NCBI GenBank assembly: GCA_014860725.1 | Contig: JACZJD010000363.1 | Location: 1 to 8,602, forward strand | Length of the DNA stretch: 8,602 nucleotides | Reading direction: 5' to 3' | Origin: Aquamicrobium sp. | GTDB lineage: Bacteria > Pseudomonadota > Alphaproteobacteria > Rhizobiales > Rhizobiaceae | Shown: positions 31 to 8,602 of the stretch, in pieces | Numbering within the stretch: the first letter of the stretch is position 1 | Layout of the letters: each line of letters opens with the position of its first letter | The notes under the pieces: generated by a model | Databases searched by the model: none | The model's input: the letters and a program-made list of their open reading frames with translations, nothing else | Told to the model about the DNA's origin: nothing | Program-made: the position numbers and the translations under genes

Positions 31-906
31 TCACACTTTCTTCCGGTGGACCTGGGCAAGGATGCCGTGCGGCCGGAACACAAGGATCAGGAACAGGAGC
101 AGGTAGGGCATGATCTGCGAGTAGCCGGCGGCGATGTAGCGCGAGGCGAACGGCTCGATCAGCCCGACGATGATCCCGCCGAGCAGCGCGCCCGGCAGCG
201 AGCCGAACCCGCCGATGACGGCGGCCGCGAACGCCTTGATGCCGAGCAGGCCGATCGAGGGGTCGATGGCGCCCTTGGACGCGAACAGGATGCCCGCCAC
301 CGCCGCGACCATGCCGGCCAGCGCCCACACCAGCGACTGAACCCGCTTGACCGGAATGCCCATATAGTAGGCGGCGAGCTGGTTCTGCGACGAGGCCTGC
401 ATCGCCACGCCGAGCTTGGTGCGGTTGAAGTAGAAGTAGAGCACCAGCGTCAGCAGCACCGTGACCACGATCACCGCGATCTCGTCGAGGCCGAGCACGA
501 GGCCGCCGAAGCGGATGTCACGGCCGGCGATCGGCGACTGCAGCGAGACCGGCTCGTGCCCCCACATCAGGCCCGCGAAGAAGCGCAGCACGAAGCCGAG
601 CGCGATCGTCAGGATGATGACGGCGATCTGCGACTGGCCCGACATGCGCCTGAGCACCACGAGGTCGAGCGCGTAGCCGAAGGCCCCCATGATGAGGATG
701 GCCACCGGCACGGAAATCCAGAAGGGCAGCCCCATGAATTCCGCATTGGTCAGCCCGAGGCAGATGAACGCGCCCAGCATCATGAAGTCGCCCTGGGCGA
801 AATTAACCGCCTCGGTCGCCTTGTAGATCAGGACGAAGCCCATCGCGATCAGGCCGTAGACGCAGCCGTTTGCAAGGCCGCTCACGATCAGTTGCAGGAC
901 ATCCAA
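31..906 (-). CDS. livH: Branched-chain amino acid-type ABC transporter permease, LivH family
   Basis: This is an inner-membrane permease of 291 residues, the usual LivH length. It would form the translocation pore with LivM, energised by LivG/LivF and fed by a periplasmic binding protein. The chain is almost wholly hydrophobic helices. The N-terminal G-L-I-A-M-G-F-V-L-I-Y-K-A block (about 18-30), the N-F-A-Q-G-D segment (35-40), the family signature GGFGSLPGALLGG (232-244) and the C-terminal F-R-P-x-G (277-281) are all visible. The start is a TTG at 906-904, chosen because GGAGGAG (921-915) sits eight bases upstream; the ATG two bases further in is out of frame. The gene lies on the same strand 128 bases after the oxidoreductase and is followed by a probable livM. 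Liv-type systems also import short-chain and aromatic acids and amides, so the substrate is open. Here the catabolic neighbours hint at an organic acid rather than leucine. Confidence 0.93.
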   Translation of the reverse strand: MDVLQLIVSGLANGCVYGLIAMGFVLIYKATEAVNFAQGDFMMLGAFICLGLTNAEFMGLPFWISVPVAILIMGAFGYALDLVVLRRMSGQSQIAVIILTIALGFVLRFFAGLMWGHEPVSLQSPIAGRDIRFGGLVLGLDEIAVIVVTVLLTLVLYFYFNRTKLGVAMQASSQNQLAAYYMGIPVKRVQSLVWALAGMVAAVAGILFASKGAIDPSIGLLGIKAFAAAVIGGFGSLPGALLGGIIVGLIEPFASRYIAAGYSQIMPYLLLFLILVFRPHGILAQVHRKKV

Positions 907-1019: not shown

Positions 1020-1035
1020 AGGGACCGGGGTCCCT
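1020..1035. repeat. Short palindrome touching the oxidoreductase stop codon
   Basis: AGGGACC-GG-GGTCCCT is a perfect inverted repeat with 7-base arms. It overlaps the last base of the minus-strand TGA (1037-1035) of the oxidoreductase gene. The spacer is only two bases, so an RNA hairpin would open to a loop of about four. There is no T-tract after it. It could be a weak stop or processing signal at the end of the enzyme genes, or chance in GC-rich DNA. Confidence 0.35.
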
Positions 1036-2003
1036 CAGGGCCTGAGCACGATCTTTCCCGTTGCACCCCTGTCGAGCACGCGCCCGAGCACGCTGCCCGC
1101 CTCCGTCAGGGGATACACGCCTTCAATCACCGGCCTGACCTTGCCCGCGAGCCGCCAGCCGATCAACTCCTTCATGTTCTCCGCATAGACCTGCGGCTCC
1201 TTCTGCGTGAAGGCGCCCCAGAAGACGCCGACCACGGAATAGCTCTTCACCAGCGTCAGGTTCACCGGCAGCTTCGGGATGGCGCCCGAGGCGAAGCCGA
1301 TGACGAGCAGCCGCCCGTCCCACGCCATCGACCGCGACAGCGCGTCGAACGCCTCGCCGCCGACGGGATCGAAGGCGACGTCGACGCCCTTGCCGCCGGT
1401 CGCCTCCTTCAGCGCGTCCTTGAGGTTGTCGTAGCCCAGCACGACGTCGGCGCCCGCCTCGCGCGCTGTTCGCTGCTTCTCCTCGCTGGAGGCGACCGCG
1501 ATCACCCGCGCGCCCATCGCCTTGCCGATCTGCACCGCCGCGACGCCGGTCGCACCCGCCGCTCCGAGGACGCACAGCGTCTCGCCCGGCTTGAGCCGGC
1601 CGCGCTGCTTCAGCGCATAGTGCGACGTCCCGTAGGCGACGAGCAGCGCGCAGGCGTCCTCGCCGGAAATGCCCGCCGGCAGCTTCATCACCGCGGATTC
1701 GTGCACGCCGACCTTCTCGGCATAGCCGCCGAGCTGGAGAAGCGCCGCCACGCGGTCGCCGACGGCGAAGCCGGTGACCTTGTCGCCCACCGCCGCGACC
1801 CGGCCCGCCACCTCCATGCCGGGCACGAAGGGCACCGGCGGCTTCATCTGGTAGAGGCCCTGCACCAGAAGCCCGTCCGGGAAGTTGACGCCGATTGTCT
1901 CGACGTCGATCACCACGGTGCGGCCTTCCGCGGCCGGCTCCGGCCAGTCGGTGTATTCGAGCTTGTCCAGCGGCGCGAAATCGCGTGCGACGATCGCCTT
2001 CAT
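1035..2003 (-). CDS. NADPH:quinone oxidoreductase-like MDR enzyme (zinc-free)
   Basis: This 322-residue cytoplasmic medium-chain dehydrogenase/reductase is the normal length for the QOR/enoyl-reductase branch. The N-terminal GroES-like half shows the E-T-I-G-V-N-F-P-D segment (35-43) and P-G-M-E-V-A-G (61-67). The Rossmann half carries the nucleotide-binding run AAGATGVAAVQIGKAMGA (148-165), and the chain ends with G-K-I-V-L-R-P. The cysteines and histidines that bind zinc in alcohol dehydrogenases are absent, which places it among NADPH quinone or enone reductases. The start is the ATG at 2003, one base after the dehydrogenase stop (TGA-G-ATG). Its own ribosome site is weak, so translation is probably coupled to the gene before it. 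In this setting it may reduce an enoyl or enone intermediate of the acyl-CoA pathway. The substrate cannot be read from sequence. Confidence 0.9.
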   Translation of the reverse strand: MKAIVARDFAPLDKLEYTDWPEPAAEGRTVVIDVETIGVNFPDGLLVQGLYQMKPPVPFVPGMEVAGRVAAVGDKVTGFAVGDRVAALLQLGGYAEKVGVHESAVMKLPAGISGEDACALLVAYGTSHYALKQRGRLKPGETLCVLGAAGATGVAAVQIGKAMGARVIAVASSEEKQRTAREAGADVVLGYDNLKDALKEATGGKGVDVAFDPVGGEAFDALSRSMAWDGRLLVIGFASGAIPKLPVNLTLVKSYSVVGVFWGAFTQKEPQVYAENMKELIGWRLAGKVRPVIEGVYPLTEAGSVLGRVLDRGATGKIVLRP

Positions 2004-2004
2004 C

Positions 2005-3255
2005 TCACACCTGCTGCTGCGTGAATTTCTTGAGCTCGTCGCGGGCGATCTGCCGCCGGTGCACCGCGTCCGGGCCGTCGGCGAGCCGCAGCGTGCGCAG
2101 ATGCGTCCACGAGCGCGCGAGCGGCGTGTCCTGCGACACGCCCTGCCCGCCATGCATCTGCACCGCCTCGTCCGTCACCTTGAGCGCGACGCGCGGCGCG
2201 ATCACCTTGATCTGGCTGATCCACGGCGCCGCAGCCTTGCCGTCGCCCTGGTCGATCATCCACGCCGCCTTGAGGCACAGGAGCCGCGCCATCTCGATCT
2301 CCATGCGGCACTCGGCGATGATGTCGTAATTGGCGCCGAGCTTGGCCAGCGGCTGGCCGAACGCCTCGCGGCGCATGGCGCGCTGGCACATCTGCTCCAG
2401 CGCCATCTCCGCCTGACCGATGGCCCGCATGCAGTGGTGGATGCGGCCGGGGCCGAGGCGGCCCTGCGCCACGGCGAAGCCCTTGCCTTCCGACAGGATC
2501 AGGTTCTGCGCCGGCACGCGCACGTCCTCGAAGCGGATGTGCATGTGGCCGTGCGGCGCGTCGTCGTCGCCATAGACCTTCATCGCCCGGAGCACGGTGA
2601 TGCCCGGCGTGTCGGCCGGCACCAGAATCATCGAGTGCTGCTCGTGCTTGCGGCGGCTGGCATCGGGCGTCGCGACCATGACGACATAGATGGCGCAGCG
2701 CGGGTCGCCCGCGCCCGAGGCCCACCACTTCTCGCCGTTGAGCACGTAATCACCGCCGTCGCGCTCGCAGCGCATGGCGATGTTGGTGGCGTCGGAGGAG
2801 GCGACGTCCGGCTCGGTCATCAGATAGGCCGAGCGTATCCTGCCTTCGAGCAGCGGCTCCAGCCACCGCTTCTTCTGCTCCGGCGAGCCGTAGCGCTCCA
2901 GCACCTCCATGTTGCCGGTGTCGGGCGCGGAGCAGTTGAACACCTCGGCGCCCAGATGCGCCTTGCCCATCTCCTCGGCGAGATAGGCGTATTCCACCGT
3001 CGACAGGCCGTAGCCGCGGCCGGAATCGGTCAGCCAGAAGTTCCACAGCCCGCGCTCGCGCGCCTTCGCCTTCAGCCCTTCGAGGATTTCGGTCTGGCGC
3101 GGCGTGAAGCTCCAGCGGTCGCCGTCCTTGCCGATCTCGGCGAGGAATTCCTCGTCGAGCGGAAGGATCTCGTCGCGCACCATGCGCGCCACCTTCTCGT
3201 GGATCGGCTTCAGCCGCTCGGTCATGCCGAGCGCCATCTCCGGGTTGGTCTTCAT
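2005..3255 (-). CDS. Acyl-CoA dehydrogenase family protein, ACAD10/ACAD11-like
   Basis: This is a 416-residue FAD-dependent acyl-CoA dehydrogenase fold. Seen in order are an N-terminal helical domain, M-T-E-P-D-V-A-S-S-D-A-T-N (146-158) at the FAD and substrate site, G-E-K-W-W-A-S-G-A-G (174-183), Q-H-S-M-I-L-V-P (206-213), QGRLGPGRIHHCMR (264-277), M-H-G-G-Q-G-V-S-Q-D (367-376) and R-L-A-D-G-P-D-A-V-H (390-399). From memory, these blocks match the C-terminal domain of animal ACAD11 closely, much more than medium-chain dehydrogenases. Where the classical family has E-G-T with the catalytic Glu, this protein has Asp393-Gly-Pro. Family members include Pseudomonas LvaC, which acts on 4-phosphoacyl-CoA. 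The ATG at 3255 overlaps the regulator stop (ATGA) and has GGAAGGA just upstream. The predicted role is turning a 4-phosphoacyl-CoA into an enoyl-CoA with the phosphotransferase at 5422. A plain acyl-CoA dehydrogenase is the alternative. Confidence 0.93.
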   Translation of the reverse strand: MKTNPEMALGMTERLKPIHEKVARMVRDEILPLDEEFLAEIGKDGDRWSFTPRQTEILEGLKAKARERGLWNFWLTDSGRGYGLSTVEYAYLAEEMGKAHLGAEVFNCSAPDTGNMEVLERYGSPEQKKRWLEPLLEGRIRSAYLMTEPDVASSDATNIAMRCERDGGDYVLNGEKWWASGAGDPRCAIYVVMVATPDASRRKHEQHSMILVPADTPGITVLRAMKVYGDDDAPHGHMHIRFEDVRVPAQNLILSEGKGFAVAQGRLGPGRIHHCMRAIGQAEMALEQMCQRAMRREAFGQPLAKLGANYDIIAECRMEIEMARLLCLKAAWMIDQGDGKAAAPWISQIKVIAPRVALKVTDEAVQMHGGQGVSQDTPLARSWTHLRTLRLADGPDAVHRRQIARDELKKFTQQQV

Positions 3256-3917
3256 GCGTCCTTCCGTTCCTCTTTCCCGCCCCGTTCCTCTTTTCCACCA
3301 AGTCCGCGCCAGGCGCAGGTGACGACAAGCTTCGCCAGTTCCTCGATGTCGGCCTTGGTCTCGCCGGTGCGCGGGGCGTACCAGAAGATCGGCGAGTTCA
3401 GCGTCATGAACATGAGCTGGTTGGTGATGCTGACGTTCTCGAAATCGAAATCGCCCTCTTCCCGCGCCCTGACGATCACCTCGCGGAAGATGGCGCTGTA
3501 GTCGCTGCGCAGGCGCACGAGGTCGGACAGGACGACGCGCTGCTGCGGCGTCGTCGCGCCGCGCAGGTGCATCTCCACCCCCATCCACACCGTGCGCTGG
3601 AACGGCCTGGTGACGATCATCTGGATGACATGGGCGAAGGCCATGCGCTTCCAGCGCATCGCCGCCGGGCCGGGCAGCGTGCGATGGGGCTCGATCGCCG
3701 CGTAGTTCATCTCCATGCCGGCGCGGAAGACGTTGGCGAACAGGTCGGCCTTGGAGCGGAAATGGTGGTAGATGCGGCCCTTGGTGGCGCCCAGCGCATG
3801 CGCGACGTCGTCGATCGACGTCTCGCTGTAGCCATGCTCCATGAAGCAGGTCGCGGCCGCGCTCAGTATGTCGGCGCGCGCATGGTCCAGCATATGCTCA
3901 CGGACGCCAAGCGTCAT
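3252..3917 (-). CDS. TetR/AcrR-family transcriptional regulator
   Basis: This 221-residue repressor-type protein has its DNA-binding domain near residues 12-60. The helix-turn-helix reads S-I-D-D-V-A-H-A-L-G-A-T-K-G-R-I-Y-H-H-F (34-53), followed by the typical R-S-K-A-D-L-F. The C-terminal part is a helical ligand domain without a recognisable ligand signature. The tail holds a tandem hexapeptide, GGKEER twice. The start is uncertain: GGGAGG lies 11 bases before the ATG at 3917 and only two bases before an in-frame GTG at 3926. The ATG is preferred because two bases is too close, but the GTG adds just three residues. It is the first gene of the minus-strand operon, overlaps the dehydrogenase by ATGA, and faces the plus-strand operon. 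It probably represses both through the palindromes at 4020-4052, relieved by an acyl-CoA or similar pathway compound. Confidence 0.92.
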   Translation of the reverse strand: MTLGVREHMLDHARADILSAAATCFMEHGYSETSIDDVAHALGATKGRIYHHFRSKADLFANVFRAGMEMNYAAIEPHRTLPGPAAMRWKRMAFAHVIQMIVTRPFQRTVWMGVEMHLRGATTPQQRVVLSDLVRLRSDYSAIFREVIVRAREEGDFDFENVSITNQLMFMTLNSPIFWYAPRTGETKADIEELAKLVVTCAWRGLGGKEERGGKEERKDA

Positions 3918-3954
3918 CGAGCCCACTTCCTCCCTTGTCCCCGGGCCCTTGTTC

Positions 3955-3990
3955 GGGAAACTCCTCCAAGAAACCCCTGGAGGGGTTCCC
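3955..3990 (-). promoter_or_regulatory. Regulator leader with two competing hairpins
   Basis: Two foldings share one strand. One is a perfect 7-bp hairpin, AACCCCT-GG-AGGGGTT at 3972-3987. The other is a longer imperfect stem pairing GGGAAACTCCTCC (3955-3967) with GGAGGGGTTCCC (3979-3990), with one mismatch or wobble and one bulge. Both cannot form at once. On the minus strand they lie in the 5' leader of the TetR gene, about 40-70 bases before its start. They may modulate read-through or mRNA stability. No leader peptide or T-run was seen, so attenuation is only a possibility. Confidence 0.35.
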
Positions 3991-4019
3991 GTCGGGCCTT
4001 TACGGGTGTGCGAATGATG

Positions 4020-4039
4020 AACATACTACCGGGTATGTT
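4020..4039. promoter_or_regulatory. Probable operator of the TetR-family regulator
   Basis: AACATACTACCGGGTATGTT has perfect 7-base outer arms (AACATAC and GTATGTT) around a six-base centre. A second, offset palindrome (TACC-G-GGTA) sits inside it. It lies between the divergent regulator and SDR genes, about 100 bases from the former and 62 from the latter. The size and placement are typical of operators bound by TetR dimers. It touches a TTGACA hexamer on the minus strand, so binding there would block the regulator's own promoter and probably the SDR promoter too. The assignment to this regulator is inferred from position. Confidence 0.65.
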
Positions 4040-4052
4040 GTCAACGTGACAA
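4038..4052. promoter_or_regulatory. Second palindrome in the divergent control region
   Basis: TTGTCA-ACG-TGACAA is a perfect 6-base inverted repeat with a three-base spacer, abutting and overlapping the main palindrome by two bases. Its halves resemble neither arm of the first site. It could be a binding site for a second regulator, or a by-product of back-to-back -35 hexamers, since TTGTCA reads on the plus strand and TTGACA on the minus strand. Confidence 0.4.
4039..4044 (-). promoter_or_regulatory. -35-like hexamer, minus strand (regulator operon)
   Basis: TTGACA reads perfectly on the minus strand at 4044-4039, about 122 bases before the regulator start. The hexamer 17 bases downstream, TTCATC, is a poor -10, so this is a candidate promoter and not a firm one. 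It lies inside the palindrome cluster, which fits autoregulation. Confidence 0.35.
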
Positions 4053-4101
4053 AGCTGCCGCACACGCCATTTGTGATGCCGCAGCGTAATGGGGAGGGAC
4101 G

Positions 4102-4917
4102 ATGTCGTATCTTGAGGATCTGTTTTCCGTCGCGGGCAAGACCGCGCTCGTCACCGGCGCGGCCACCGGCATCGGCCGCATGGCGGCGACCGGCCTGGTC
4201 ATGGGCGGCGCGACGGTTCTGATCGCCTCGCGCAAGGGCGCGGACTGCGCCCGCGTCGCGGACGAGCTGAACGCGCTCGGCGGCAGCGGCCGGGCCGAGG
4301 GCTTCGCCGGCGACGTCGGCAGCGAGGAAGGCATCGCCGCGCTGGTCGCCGAGGTGAAGAGCCGCACCGACCGCCTCGGCATCCTCATCAACAATGCCGG
4401 CATCACCTGGGGCGCGGAGTTCGAGGACTTCCCCTATTCGGCCTGGGCCAAGGTGCTTGCGGTCAACGTCACCGGCCTCTTCCACCTGACGCGCGAGCTG
4501 ACGCCGCTGCTGGAGAAGGCGGCGAGCCACGAGGACCCCGCCCGCGTCATCAATCTCGGCTCCGTCATGGGCACGCAGCCGCTCGCCGACGGCGCCTATT
4601 CCTACACCGCCTCCAAGGCGGCCGTGCATCACCTCACCCGCACGCTCGCCAACGAGCTCGCCCCCCGGCGCATCACGGTCAACGCCTTCGCGCCCGGCCC
4701 CTTCCAGAGCCGCATGACCGCCTTCGCCACCGCCTCCGACCGGCAGGCGGCCCATGTCGGCGGCCATGTGCCCCTCGGCCGCATAGGTGCGCCCGACGAC
4801 ATCGCCGGCGCCACGCTCTATCTGTGCAGCCGCGCCGGCCGTTATGTCACCGGCGCGATTCTGCCTCTTGACGGCGGGCAATCCGTCCAGCACGGCATGA
4901 CGCTGTTCAAGGAATGA
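4102..4917 (+). CDS. Classical SDR-family oxidoreductase (FabG-like), first gene of the plus-strand operon
   Basis: This 271-residue cytoplasmic Rossmann-fold enzyme has the full classical SDR set. The glycine motif T-G-A-A-T-G-I-G is at 18-25, N-N-A-G at 97-100, and the catalytic tetrad is Asn122, Ser154, Tyr168 and Lys172 (Y-T-A-S-K). After the second strand it has S-R-K (43-45); basic residues there usually mean NADP(H) preference. The C-terminal P-L-D-G-G (255-259) is standard. The ATG at 4102 follows a GGGGAGGG tract (4091-4098). As the first gene divergent from the TetR regulator, it is likely controlled by the palindromes at 4020-4052. With the MaoC hydratase next to it, the likely job is interconverting a 3-hydroxyacyl-CoA and 3-oxoacyl-CoA, or oxidising another secondary alcohol such as a 4-hydroxy acid. 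Substrate and direction are not visible in the sequence. Confidence 0.92.
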   Translation: MSYLEDLFSVAGKTALVTGAATGIGRMAATGLVMGGATVLIASRKGADCARVADELNALGGSGRAEGFAGDVGSEEGIAALVAEVKSRTDRLGILINNAGITWGAEFEDFPYSAWAKVLAVNVTGLFHLTRELTPLLEKAASHEDPARVINLGSVMGTQPLADGAYSYTASKAAVHHLTRTLANELAPRRITVNAFAPGPFQSRMTAFATASDRQAAHVGGHVPLGRIGAPDDIAGATLYLCSRAGRYVTGAILPLDGGQSVQHGMTLFKE

Positions 4918-4930
4918 TGCGAGCCGCAAG

Positions 4931-5425
4931 ATGAGCACAAGCAAGCTGGAACCCGTCTCCCTCGAGGAGGCGAAGCAGGCCGTGGGCACGGAGATAGGAG
5001 TCTCCTCCTGGCGCACGGTCTCGCAGGAGATGATCGACAAGTTCGCCGACGCCACCGACGATCATCAGTTCATCCATGTCGATCCGGCGCGCGCCGCCGC
5101 CGAGACGCCGTTCGGCGGCACCATCGCCCACGGCTTCCTGTCGCTGTCGCTCCTGTCGACGCTCGCCTACGAGACGATCCCGCCGGTCCGCGAATCCGGC
5201 ATCGGCGTCAATTACGGCTTCGACCGCGTCCGCTTCGCCGCGCCAGTGAAGTCGGGCGCCCGCATCCGCGGCCGCTTCAGGCTGGTCGAGCTCACCGTCC
5301 GCCCCTCGGGCTGGCTGCACTTCAACTACGACGTCACGGTCGAGATCGAGGGGTCGGCCAAGCCGGCGCTGACCGCGCGCTGGCTCACCCTCGGCAAGAT
5401 CGAGAATGGAAAGGACGCAGCATGA
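4931..5425 (+). CDS. MaoC-family dehydratase, (R)-specific enoyl-CoA hydratase/NodN-like
   Basis: This is a single hot-dog domain of 164 residues, the usual size for PhaJ/NodN-type hydratases. The active-site segment reads F-A-D-A-T-D-D-H-Q-F-I-H-V-D-P (38-52). It places Asp44 and His49 five residues apart, as in the catalytic Asp/His pair of (R)-hydratases. F-G-G-T-I-A-H-G-F-L-S-L-S-L-L (61-75) forms the conserved central helix. The family hydrates trans-2-enoyl-CoA to (R)-3-hydroxyacyl-CoA. The start at 4931 lies 13 bases after the SDR stop with a weak ribosome site, so coupling to the upstream gene is likely. Its TGA overlaps the next ATG (ATGA). In this cluster it would take the enoyl-CoA made by the ACAD-like enzyme and pass a 3-hydroxyacyl-CoA to an SDR. 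NodN-like proteins of unknown substrate are the main alternative. Confidence 0.92.
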   Translation: MSTSKLEPVSLEEAKQAVGTEIGVSSWRTVSQEMIDKFADATDDHQFIHVDPARAAAETPFGGTIAHGFLSLSLLSTLAYETIPPVRESGIGVNYGFDRVRFAAPVKSGARIRGRFRLVELTVRPSGWLHFNYDVTVEIEGSAKPALTARWLTLGKIENGKDAA

Positions 5426-6456
5426 GCGACGCCAACGCCCTCGATGCCGCCGCGCTCGCGCCGTATCTGGAGAAGCACGTGGCCGGGTTCCACGGCCTGA
5501 AGGAAATCGAGAAGTTCAACGCCGGCCAGTCGAACCCGACCTATCTGGTCGTGGCCGAGAGCGGCCGCTACGTGCTGCGCGCCAAGCCGTCCGGCCAGCT
5601 CCTCAAATCCGCGCACCAGGTCGACCGCGAGTACCGGGTGATGGCGGCGCTGAAGGACAGCGCCGTGCCGGTGCCGCCGGTGCTGCATCTGTCGGGCGAG
5701 GATTCGCCCATCGGCCGGATGTTCTACGTCATGGCCCATGTCGAGGGCCGCATCTTCTGGGACCCGGCGCTGCCCGAGGTGGCGAGCACGCAGGAACGCG
5801 GCGCCATCTACGACGCCATGAACAAGGTGCTAGCCGCCCTGCACGACGTCGATGTCGAGGCCGTCGGCCTCGGCGATTTCGGCCGGCCGGGCAGCTATTT
5901 CGAGCGCCAGCTCACCCGCTGGAGCGGCCAGTACCGCGCCTCCGAGACCGAGTCGATCGCGGACATGGACGGGCTGATCGAGTGGCTGGAGAAGAACCTC
6001 GTCGCCGACGACGGCCGCGTGTCGCTGGTGCACGGCGATTTCCGCCTCGACAACATGATCTTCGCGCCCGACAGGCCCGAGGTGATCGCCGTTCTCGACT
6101 GGGAGCTCTCGACGCTCGGCCACCCCTTCGCCGACATCTCCTATCAGTGCATGCAGTGGCGGCTGCCGCATGATTCGGGCTTCCGCGGCCTCGGCGGCCT
6201 CGACCGCGCCGCGCTCGGCCTGCCCACCGAGGCCGAATATGTCGCGCGCTACTGCGAGCGGCGCGGCCTCGACGCCATCCCCGACTGGACGTTCCACCTC
6301 GCCTTCTCCTTCTTCCGTCTGGCGGCGATCTGCCAGGGCGTCTACAAGCGCGCGCTCGACGGCAACGCCTCCAATCCGGAGAAGGCGAAGACCTACGGCA
6401 AGGCCGTGCATCTCCTGGCCGCGCTGGCGCAGGACGCGATCCGGGAAGGAGCCTGA
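5422..6456 (+). CDS. APH-fold phosphotransferase, ACAD10/11 N-domain and LvaA-like
   Basis: This 344-residue kinase has the aminoglycoside/choline kinase fold. Seen are a nucleotide loop F-N-A-G-Q-S-N-P-T-Y (32-41), the ATP-anchoring lysine in L-R-A-K-P (Lys55 the likely one), the helix glutamate in V-D-R-E-Y-R (Glu70), the catalytic loop H-G-D-F-R-L-D-N (204-211, Asp206 and Asn211) and the metal-binding D-W-E (226-228). All key kinase residues are present. This branch is not a resistance kinase: homologous domains are fused in front of the dehydrogenase domain in animal ACAD10 and ACAD11, and Pseudomonas LvaA phosphorylates 4-hydroxyacyl-CoA. The ACAD partner is in the divergent operon at 2005-3255. 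The start is the ATG of the ATGA overlap with maoC, six bases after AAGGA (5411-5415). The next gene starts two bases after its stop. The predicted substrate is a hydroxyacyl-CoA; the exact chain is unknown. Confidence 0.92.
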   Translation: MSDANALDAAALAPYLEKHVAGFHGLKEIEKFNAGQSNPTYLVVAESGRYVLRAKPSGQLLKSAHQVDREYRVMAALKDSAVPVPPVLHLSGEDSPIGRMFYVMAHVEGRIFWDPALPEVASTQERGAIYDAMNKVLAALHDVDVEAVGLGDFGRPGSYFERQLTRWSGQYRASETESIADMDGLIEWLEKNLVADDGRVSLVHGDFRLDNMIFAPDRPEVIAVLDWELSTLGHPFADISYQCMQWRLPHDSGFRGLGGLDRAALGLPTEAEYVARYCERRGLDAIPDWTFHLAFSFFRLAAICQGVYKRALDGNASNPEKAKTYGKAVHLLAALAQDAIREGA

Positions 6457-6458
6457 CC

Positions 6459-7226
6459 ATGGGCCGTTTCGAGGGAATGACCGTTCTCGTCACCGGCGCT
6501 GCCGGCGGCTTCGGCCTCAGGACGGCGGAACGCTTCGCCGCCGAGGGCGCGCGCCTCGTGCTCTCCGACATCGACGGCGGCCGGCTGGACGAGGTCGCGG
6601 CCAGCCTCGGCGCGGAGACCGCGACGCTGGCGGGCGACATCTCGGACGAGGCGCTTTCCGAAAACCTCGTCGCGCTCGCCTTCTCGCGCTTCGGCCGGCT
6701 CGACGTCGCCGTCAACAATGCCGGCATCGTCCACGACTTCATGAAGCTGCCGCAGACGCCGTCGGACGTGGCGCGCCGCGTCTTCGACATCGACCTGCTC
6801 GGCATGTTCTTCGCGCTGAAGCACCAGCTTCCGGCGCTGGAGCGGCAGCACAAGGAGGCGGGCATCAGGAGCGCCGTCGTCAACATCGCCTCGGTCGCCG
6901 GCATCGCCGGCGCGCCGCGCCTTGCCGTCTATGCGGCCGCCAAGCACGGCGTCGTCGGCCTGACGCGCTCGGCGGCGGCGGAATACGCCACAAAGGGCAT
7001 CCGCATCAACGCGGTCTGCCCCTCCTTCGCGCGCACCGCGATGGTGACCGGCGTGCTCGGCCACGACAACCCCTCCGGCGAGACAGAGCTGACGCGCGGC
7101 GTGCCGATGAAGAGGCTGGCCGAGGTGGACGAGATCGTCGAGGTGATCCTCTTCGCCGCCGACCCGAAGAATTCGTTCATGACCGGACAGACGCTCGCCG
7201 CCGACGGCGGCATCACCGCGATCTGA
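6459..7226 (+). CDS. SDR-family oxidoreductase, likely NAD-dependent, last gene of the operon
   Basis: This 255-residue classical SDR carries T-G-A-A-G-G-F-G (12-19), N-N-A-G (86-89), Ser145, and Tyr158/Lys162 in Y-A-A-A-K. Asp37 at the end of the second strand (L-S-D-I-D) favours NAD(H), unlike the first SDR of the operon. The position usually held by the tetrad Asn is Asp112 (D-I-D-L-L-G). The overall look is that of 3-hydroxyacyl-CoA dehydrogenases and cyclopentanol-type dehydrogenases. The ATG at 6459 lies two bases after the phosphotransferase stop, with AAGGAG (6446-6451) seven bases before it inside the upstream gene. A strong hairpin follows at 7253, so this gene closes the operon. 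It is probably the oxidative 3-hydroxyacyl-CoA step, paired with the MaoC hydratase. Which of the two SDRs does which step is not decidable here. Confidence 0.92.
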   Translation: MGRFEGMTVLVTGAAGGFGLRTAERFAAEGARLVLSDIDGGRLDEVAASLGAETATLAGDISDEALSENLVALAFSRFGRLDVAVNNAGIVHDFMKLPQTPSDVARRVFDIDLLGMFFALKHQLPALERQHKEAGIRSAVVNIASVAGIAGAPRLAVYAAAKHGVVGLTRSAAAEYATKGIRINAVCPSFARTAMVTGVLGHDNPSGETELTRGVPMKRLAEVDEIVEVILFAADPKNSFMTGQTLAADGGITAI

Positions 7227-7408: not shown

Positions 7409-8602
7409 GTGGACGTCTCGGTCAAGAGCCACCGCAGGGCGTCAGGGTCCATATTCCGGGCGACGAACATACCGGCCCTTCTGGCCCTGTTCGTCGTCAC
7501 GGTCGCATGGCTGGTGGCCGAGCAGCAGAACCGCCGCCTGTTCGAGCAGGCCCAGCGCGCCGACGTGCTCCACCACATGAGCGTGATCCGCGCCCGGCTC
7601 GAAGGCAATGTCAGCGGCAACATCCAGCTCGCCCGCGGCCTCGTCGCCATCCTCGCCACCGAGCCCGACATGGACCAGCGGCGCTTCTCGGCGCTGGCCG
7701 GCAACCTGCTGCCCAGGACGTCGCAGATCCGCAACTTCGCCGCCGCCGAGGACCTGACCGTCACCCTCGTCTATCCGTTCGAAGGCAACGAGAAGGCGCT
7801 GGGGCTGAACTATCGCGACAATCCCGAGCAGCGCGCCGGCGCCGAGCGCGCACGCGACACCGGCGACCTCGTGCTCGCCGGCCCGGTCGATCTCGTGCAG
7901 GGCGGCCGCGGCATCATCGGCCGCCTGCCGGTCTTCGCCGCCGGTCCCGACGGCAGCCGGCCCTTCTGGGGCATCGTCTCGGTCGTCGTCGACATCGACC
8001 GGCTCTACGCCGACAGCGGCATGCTCGACCCGGGCCTGCCGATCGACATCGCGCTGTCCGGCCACGACGGGCTCGGCGCGCGCGGCGCGCTGTTCTACGG
8101 CGCGCCCGAGATTCTCGCCAGCGACCCGGTCGTGGCCGAAGTCACCCTTCCCTCGGGCGCGTGGCAGATCGCCGCGACGCCCAAGGGCGGCTGGCCGCAG
8201 ACGCCGACCAATCTGTGGACGCTCAGGCTGCTCCTGTTCACGGCGGCCGCGCTCATCATGGTGCCGGCGGTGATCGCCGGCCGCCTGATCGAGGAGCGCC
8301 AGCGCAACATCCGCACGCTGCGCCGCCGCGAGGCGCAGCTCGGCAAGCTGTCGCGCCGCCTGCGCCTCGCCCTCGACACCTCGAAGGTCGCGGTGTGGGA
8401 GATGAGCATCGGCGCCTCGTCGCAATACTGGGACGACCGGATGAATGAGCTCTACGGCTATCCGGCCGACGGCGAGCCGCGCAACAGCGGCCACTGGGAG
8501 CAGCGCCTTCACCCGGACGACGTCGAGCGCGCGAACGAGGAGTTCCGCAGGCTGGCCGCCGACGGCCACTACACGTCGCAGTACCGCATCGTCCTCGACG
8601 AC
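7409..8602 (+). CDS. Membrane sensor protein with CHASE and PAS domains (3' end outside window)
   Basis: This open frame of 398 codons reaches the window edge without a stop. A short basic N-terminus is followed by a first membrane helix (about 21-37). Then comes an extracytoplasmic CHASE-like domain (about 60-250, with G-L-N-Y-R-D-N-P near 132 and G-P-V-D-L-V-Q-G-G-R-G near 158). A second membrane helix follows (about 272-292), a charged linker (293-316), and a PAS-fold segment starting near 317 (L-A-L-D-T-S-K-V-A-V-W-E, then H-P-D-D near 368). CHASE domains sense small molecules outside the membrane. The output domain lies beyond the window and could be a histidine kinase, GGDEF or EAL. The GTG start is chosen because GAGGG lies four bases upstream, an in-frame stop lies at 7343, and the first in-frame ATG (codon 57) falls after the first helix. 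It is separated from the acyl-CoA operon by a terminator and need not be functionally linked. Confidence 0.88.
   Translation, partial: MDVSVKSHRRASGSIFRATNIPALLALFVVTVAWLVAEQQNRRLFEQAQRADVLHHMSVIRARLEGNVSGNIQLARGLVAILATEPDMDQRRFSALAGNLLPRTSQIRNFAAAEDLTVTLVYPFEGNEKALGLNYRDNPEQRAGAERARDTGDLVLAGPVDLVQGGRGIIGRLPVFAAGPDGSRPFWGIVSVVVDIDRLYADSGMLDPGLPIDIALSGHDGLGARGALFYGAPEILASDPVVAEVTLPSGAWQIAATPKGGWPQTPTNLWTLRLLLFTAAALIMVPAVIAGRLIEERQRNIRTLRRREAQLGKLSRRLRLALDTSKVAVWEMSIGASSQYWDDRMNELYGYPADGEPRNSGHWEQRLHPDDVERANEEFRRLAADGHYTSQYRIVLDD

Follow-up and report, generated by a model that had tools for sequence, protein, structure and literature searches.

A split ACAD10/11-type kinase and dehydrogenase pair in a predicted TetR-repressed 4-hydroxy acid regulon of Aquamicrobium

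Introduction

A stretch of 8602 bases from Aquamicrobium sp. (contig JACZJD010000363.1; "the window" hereafter means this whole stretch) encodes a kinase of the APH fold and an acyl-CoA dehydrogenase (ACAD) in two divergent operons, and the question that it raises is whether the two proteins form a bacterial, split version of enzymes that mammals make as a single chain. The catabolism of 4-hydroxy acids was assigned to animal ACAD10 and ACAD11 in papers of 2024 and 2025 (PMC12440821, PMC11342911). These enzymes cover chains of about 5-10 carbons (PMC12440821), and bacterial orthologues of another species substitute for ACAD10 domains in vitro (PMC11342911). We consider it probable (roughly 0.75) that the window holds a split ACAD10/11 system within one catabolic regulon, by which 4-hydroxy (or 4-oxo) acids, perhaps from lactones, would be degraded under repression by TetR. 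An original prediction, made from this DNA, had proposed such a kinase and dehydrogenase pathway; what it observed is confirmed, and its interpretation is supported and essentially right.

Results

The dehydrogenase

Open reading frames (ORFs), Pfam and Protein Data Bank (PDB) matches agree with the original prediction on a full APH-fold kinase at 5422-6456 and an ACAD at 2005-3255. When PDB sequences were searched with the window ACAD, 4hr3 scored 427 bits and ACAD11 417 bits, as against 157 bits for the best ordinary ACAD, and identity to mouse ACAD11 is 50%. In ACAD11 the residues R626, H634 and R637 hold the 4-phosphate, as judged by modelling and mutation, and D753 is catalytic; in ACAD10/11 the ACAD step is lost when these residues are changed non-conservatively (PMC12440821). 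By residue alignment ACAD11 R626/R631/H634/R637/D753 are R266/R271/H274/R277/D393 of the window protein (the signature RRHRD), and the ACAD11-like block that first drew attention, QGRLGPGRIHHCMR, is real and contains three of the four residues special to ACAD11.

The full signature recurs in 67/73 non-redundant ACADs from the fetched loci, some of them just 34-38% identical to the window, while in the remaining six, about 30% identical or below, all four special residues are missing and at most the generic R631 is kept. For these counts, sequences shorter than 80% of the query or with stop codons were dropped beforehand, and near-identical rows were then thinned, from 215 to 73 for the ACADs and from 186 to 116 for the kinases. 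The signature class is split from ordinary ACADs at SH-aLRT 99, and within it the window ACAD and mouse ACAD11 share a 36-row clade, also at SH-aLRT 99, that leaves the LvaC-type rows outside; the trees are quick searches with SH-aLRT support only, in which long branches were flagged. The original prediction would have been refuted had the protein fallen among ordinary ACADs; it groups instead with mouse ACAD11 and carries the diagnostic residues. By family the window ACAD is thus of the ACAD10/11 type, and it would be expected to convert 4-phosphoacyl-CoA to 2-enoyl-CoA.

The kinase

The kinase matched 3dxp at 368 bits (51% identity) and ACAD11 at 264 bits (43% identity to the mouse kinase domain), and it groups with mouse ACAD11 in the trees. 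Its catalytic D206 and N211 (ACAD11 D220/N225) are present, and so are two arginines, R69 beside alphaC E70 and R162 (ACAD11 R176), whose ACAD11 counterparts have been placed on CoA by modelling (PMC12440821; R86 of ACAD11 in that paper is position 84 in our numbering). All four residues recur in each of the 116 non-redundant kinase sequences that span 80% or more of the query. We assign the kinase to the ACAD10/11 type, with phosphorylation of 4-hydroxyacyl-CoA as its expected activity; for both the kinase and the ACAD step the case from homology is strong.

Mammalian ACAD10 and ACAD11 are homologous to the window pair in both domains and have the tested active-site residues in common with it. 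They differ in being fused, whereas the window has two proteins in divergent operons among bacterial catabolic neighbours, and ACAD10 has a HAD domain that the window pair lacks. In other proteobacteria, too, the orthologues of the two domains are separate proteins (the pair of PMC11342911; 3dxp).

Co-occurrence of the pair

A survey of co-occurrence, a check named in the original prediction, gave a near-perfect result across 299 Pseudomonadota genomes: 85 have both proteins, two the kinase only, none the ACAD only and 212 neither. Calls were made at E<=1e-40 for the kinase (87 genomes) and at 280 bits or more for an ACAD11-class ACAD (85 genomes), the latter threshold being chosen after a gap appeared in the score list, with no more than 6-7 candidates scored per genome. 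The pairing is far beyond chance; since the genomes are related, its p-value should not be read as one for independent samples. In both kinase-only genomes (G013, G227) an ACAD of 37-38% identity with the signature RRHRD adjoins the kinase (L159, L106); G009, G017, G047 and G281 gave no kinase match and only such ACADs of lower score (191-242 bits). An ACAD match lies within 5 kb of 64 of the 106 kinase matches, and within 1 kb of 39; in other genomes the pair is frequently adjacent on the same strand, or separated by one gene. Contig C45 of genome G001 (L116, L169) has an additional adjacent pair, whose ACAD is 36-37% identical and keeps RRHRD, a deep subtype. Long frames at the kinase matches of G168, G120, G021 and G294 hinted at bacterial fusions, which we rejected as the ACADs lie on other contigs.

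These results bear on an alternative in which the dehydrogenase is an ordinary ACAD, its acyl-CoA substrate branched or cyclic, and the kinase has an unrelated substrate. The generic database names of the proteins would fit this, as would genes for Liv transporters and quinone oxidoreductases, which are common in catabolic operons. The catalytic aspartate, the phosphate-pocket residues, the tree and the co-occurrence all argue to the contrary, and we regard this alternative as very improbable.

The locus

The window (G+C 66-72% across 1-kb steps) contains nine genes, whose ORF positions match the original prediction and whose domains are confirmed by Pfam. Its features are as follows.

31..906, minus strand: LivH-type ABC permease, from domain and family models
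1035..2009, minus strand: PIG3-like quinone oxidoreductase/MDR protein (QOR), from domain and family models
2005..3255, minus strand: ACAD10/11-type acyl-CoA dehydrogenase, from PDB matches, residue alignment and trees
3252..3926, minus strand: DarR-like TetR-family regulator, from matches to DarR-type chains
3999..4027, plus strand: possible rightward promoter TTTACG-N17-CATACT, read by eye, -10 within the operator
4020..4039, no strand: candidate operator AACATAC-N6-GTATGTT, conserved between the divergent genes and tracking the TetR gene
4023..4052, minus strand: possible leftward promoter TTGTCA-N18-TAGTAT, from a consensus scan, -10 within the operator
4102..4917, plus strand: SDR1, of the RhlG-like 3-oxoacyl reductase/dehydrogenase family
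4931..5425, plus strand: MaoC, probable enoyl-CoA hydratase, from Pfam
5422..6456, plus strand: ACAD10/11-type APH-fold kinase, from PDB matches, residue alignment and trees
6459..7226, plus strand: SDR2, from Pfam
7409..8602: CHASE-PAS sensor protein, cut by the window edge, from Pfam

The spacer 3927-4101 separates a leftward operon (TetR-ACAD-QOR-LivH) from a rightward one (SDR-MaoC-kinase-SDR), and overlaps of 4-5 bases join TetR to ACAD, ACAD to QOR and MaoC to the kinase. The original prediction of two operons facing a TetR-controlled region is right as to the divergence; the TetR gene itself is the first of the leftward operon. SDR1 has its best PDB match in 2b4q, the rhamnolipid 3-oxoacyl reductase (218 bits), and its top NCBIfam model, gluconate 5-dehydrogenase, is under the cut-off. 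MaoC best matches RV0130 (123 bits), and the family suggests that it would be (R)-specific. SDR2 may be a 3-hydroxyacyl- or a 4-oxo/4-hydroxyacyl-CoA oxidoreductase. In the nearest relative locus, L005, the leftward operon continues past LivH with LivM, LivG, LivF and a FadD-like acyl-CoA ligase; the nearest proteins, where named by their sources, come from Aquamicrobium, Mesorhizobium and kin.

Eighty loci were kept from a kinase scan of 488 relatives, some of them, including L031, shortened by contig ends. Near the kinase lie ACAD in 79, MaoC in 79, SDR1 in 78, SDR2 in 62, QOR in 18, TetR in 17 and LivH in 13, and in 79/79 the ACAD gene runs opposite to the kinase gene. The ACAD gene and the divergent SDR-MaoC-kinase genes are thus a conserved core in Phyllobacteriaceae. 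A second MDR-type oxidoreductase gene (L034:6215-7252) stands near ACAD in 72/80 loci; neither the window nor L005 has it, QOR standing there instead. The CHASE-PAS protein is near the cluster in 7/80.

The regulator and its candidate operator

The window TetR matches DarR structures at 112-122 bits and retains the KG and Tyr positions with which DarR contacts DNA. The palindrome AACATAC-N6-GTATGTT is exact in 18/18 spacers, the window's included, while the rest of the spacer mostly drifts. It tracks the regulator: it is present in 17/17 related loci with TetR and in 0/63 without (a few of these 63 are incomplete), and ten survey loci gave 4/4 with TetR (G001, G195, G198, G233) and 0/6 without. 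L006 also comes from G001, the TetR of G233 is just 38% identical, and the set of 17 may include genomes closely related to G195, G198 and G233. Chance would give about 0.0016 exact sites per 5 Mb, and 0.03 in the window even with three mismatches allowed.

The mycobacterial and rhodococcal DarR regulators have a similar operator, ATACT(N)4AGTAT (PMC10636190), and the inner motif of our palindrome equals it exactly in L005, L009, L084 and many of the second sites described below (e.g. ATACT-CGGT-AGTAT). Both possible promoters run into the palindrome: the leftward one matches the consensus at 9/12 positions, with 0.1 expected in shuffles, and the rightward one scored under the cut-off of that scan, its CTTTACG being conserved in most spacer rows. 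We infer that TetR represses both operons from the palindrome. The cyclic-nucleotide signature W(X)6Q(X)7L reads W(X)6E in the window TetR, so that the glutamine with which DarR reads adenine is replaced by glutamate, and as a result the effector may differ from that of DarR.

A second operon in relatives

A second copy of the palindrome, at one mismatch or fewer, was found in 14/20 genomes with TetR (13/16 in one scan, plus G001); the reversed pattern, used as control, gave two such sites in 16 genomes compared with 30 for the palindrome. A FadB-like gene lies downstream of 14/14 second sites, and in 12/14 an alpha/beta hydrolase of the PcaD lactonase type stands between site and FadB; the two without it are L305, the nearest relative, and L314. 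The lactonase copy of L288 passes TIGR02427 (3-oxoadipate enol-lactonase) at 342 bits against a cut-off of 255.85. At the six second sites inspected by eye, TTGAC (five) or TTGAT (one) occurs about 17 bases before CATACT, a spacing that puts a likely -10 box partly or wholly within the palindrome. One extra site at one mismatch or fewer (L318) has none of the FadB or lactonase genes nearby. The original prediction had ventured that the substrate might be a lactone product. Indirect support comes from 12/20 TetR genomes, in which a second operator-like site precedes a PcaD-type lactonase gene.

Several observations weigh against the regulon that we propose. The enzyme core stands without this TetR nearby in 63/80 loci, without QOR in 62 and without LivH in 67 (some of these loci being shortened). 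The inner half-site of the window is GGTAT, one base off the AGTAT of DarR, and the glutamate noted above is shared by 16/17 TetR loci (L007 was not covered). Sites with two mismatches are about as common as those of the control pattern, and six of the 20 TetR genomes (G453, G456, G457, G195, G198, G233) have no second site at one mismatch or fewer. The second operon and lactonase are known from relatives only, beyond the 8602 bases of the window; in L305 (genome G445), the nearest relative, the second site precedes FadB with no lactonase there, and a search of that genome at E<=1e-40 found none either. PcaD-type lactonases, moreover, are named for 3-oxoadipate enol-lactone, and a role with gamma-lactones is a guess.

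Some of these points would suit a different source of substrate, namely that 4-hydroxyacyl-CoAs arise from fatty acids or lipid peroxidation as in animals and that the second operon is a co-regulated fatty-acid operon without any lactone. The 5-10 carbon range of ACAD10/11 would fit, as would the presence of FadB after every second site when the lactonase follows only 12 and is lacking in the nearest relative, and QOR-type reductases could conceivably act on enals or enones. This scenario leaves unaccounted for the lactonase that stands between operator and FadB at 12/14 sites, and the second-site lactonases compared share 67-83% identity with the L288 copy, whereas six genomes with TetR-less loci have matches of just 52-57%. 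We think it unlikely, though still a serious competitor.

Comparison with the lva and Thermus PfmR operons

A further alternative is that the window carries a levulinate/4-hydroxyvalerate operon of the lva type, with homologues of LvaA, LvaC and LvaD reordered. The published Pseudomonas lva genes (LvaABCDE) include an SDR and a CoA ligase, and their regulator LvaR is sigma54-dependent. Our comparison rows are lva-order operons of the group of G131 (taken as Pseudomonas by content), not authentic KT2440 sequences, and their ORF calls are crude in G+C-rich DNA. They were found via DUF6285 (PF19802, detected in 24/298 genomes), ACAD copy number having led to other kinase-ACAD clusters instead, and consist of a divergent protein of about 650 residues, a kinase, a 118-residue DUF6285 protein, a 390-residue ACAD, a 255-residue SDR and an AMP ligase, an order that agrees with published lva. 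At the DUF6285 matches the 118-residue gene fills the LvaB position in L345, L348, L349 and L350; from gene order DUF6285 is probably the LvaB family.

The likeness is substantial: the chemistry would be the same, kinase, ACAD, SDR and CoA ligase are common to both, and LvaC-type ACADs also have RRHRD. These ACADs are only 33-34% identical to that of the window, however, and their identity to mouse ACAD11 is 34-37% (similarity 51-54%), as against 50% between window and ACAD11. PMC11342911 gives 62% and 56% identity between ACAD10/11 and LvaC, at odds with our lower figures. The four LvaA-type kinases are 26-27% identical to the window kinase in partial alignments, are without both CoA arginines and cluster with Thermus TTHB014 in a clade of their own, just as the LvaC-type ACADs group with TTHB015; in trees with the lva-order rows the window proteins lie outside both clades. 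Next to the window kinase there is no room for an LvaB partner gene, the intergenic gaps being 182 bases or less, and the regulator is a TetR. By residues and trees, the window pair is of the ACAD10/11 type and the lva pair is related to it more distantly, so that an lva-type operon is an improbable account of the locus. The original prediction had drawn on kinship with both systems: that with ACAD10/11 is the closer, and the lva-order proteins are distant. It took the gene set to be unlike that of lva; with an SDR and a CoA ligase in lva, the sets differ less than it had supposed.

A Thermus thermophilus operon on pTT27 extends the comparison. There (L327:5044-13746) TTHB015 carries the full ACAD11 signature beside the kinase TTHB014 and a DUF6285 gene, and this is the operon of the studied TetR regulator TTHB023/PfmR. 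Its MaoC, two SDRs, AMP-binding protein, phosphotransferase and RRHRD ACAD recall the window, and the window TetR is 30% identical to TTHB023. It differs in that its kinase and ACAD fall in LvaA/LvaC-like clades, in its DUF6285 and second, ordinary ACAD, and in the published PfmR operator consensus, which is not our palindrome. We predict that the PfmR operon is an lva-like 4-hydroxyacyl-CoA module in Deinococcota.

Discussion

The pathway that we propose would begin with uptake of a carboxylic acid by the Liv-type ABC transporter and its joining to CoA by an acyl-CoA ligase such as the FadD-like one of L005. If the substrate were a 4-oxo acid, an SDR (SDR2 could serve) would reduce it to the 4-hydroxyacyl-CoA level. 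The kinase would phosphorylate the 4-hydroxyl group and the ACAD, with FAD as an internal redox shuttle, would eliminate the phosphate in a redox-neutral step to give 2-enoyl-CoA, the mechanism described in PMC11342911 and PMC12440821. MaoC would hydrate this product and SDR1 would oxidise the resulting 3-hydroxyacyl-CoA, with the FadB-like protein as an alternative route. The DarR-like TetR would repress both operons through the one promoter-overlapping palindrome, and in many relatives the second operon too, where the PcaD-type lactonase would open a gamma-lactone to a 4-hydroxy acid or an enol-lactone to a 4-oxo acid. We further speculate, as a tentative possibility held with less than even confidence, that the altered adenine pocket could allow the repressor to read a CoA ester, and that Phyllobacteriaceae have a two-operon lactone regulon in which the lactonase and then the split ACAD11-type pair feed beta-oxidation.

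The enzymology and chemistry of this route are already known; the arrangement and the proposed DarR-like two-operon regulon appear to be new. No description of the cluster or its operator appeared, by title or abstract start, among the openly licensed PMC matches listed, which cover part of the literature, and the accessible passages of PMC11342911 give no account of a MaoC/SDR/Liv/DarR-like setting such as the window's for the pair studied there.

Residues and trees can tell ACAD10/11-type pairs from lva-type pairs, and they link the lva type to the Thermus PfmR operon, whose kinase and ACAD bore merely generic names in the PfmR literature accessible to us. For the ACAD10/11 type, the window adds a bacterial pair of separate proteins, with a regulator of its own, a candidate operator and presumably co-regulated genes, which points to a testable class of substrates and offers a tractable bacterial model.

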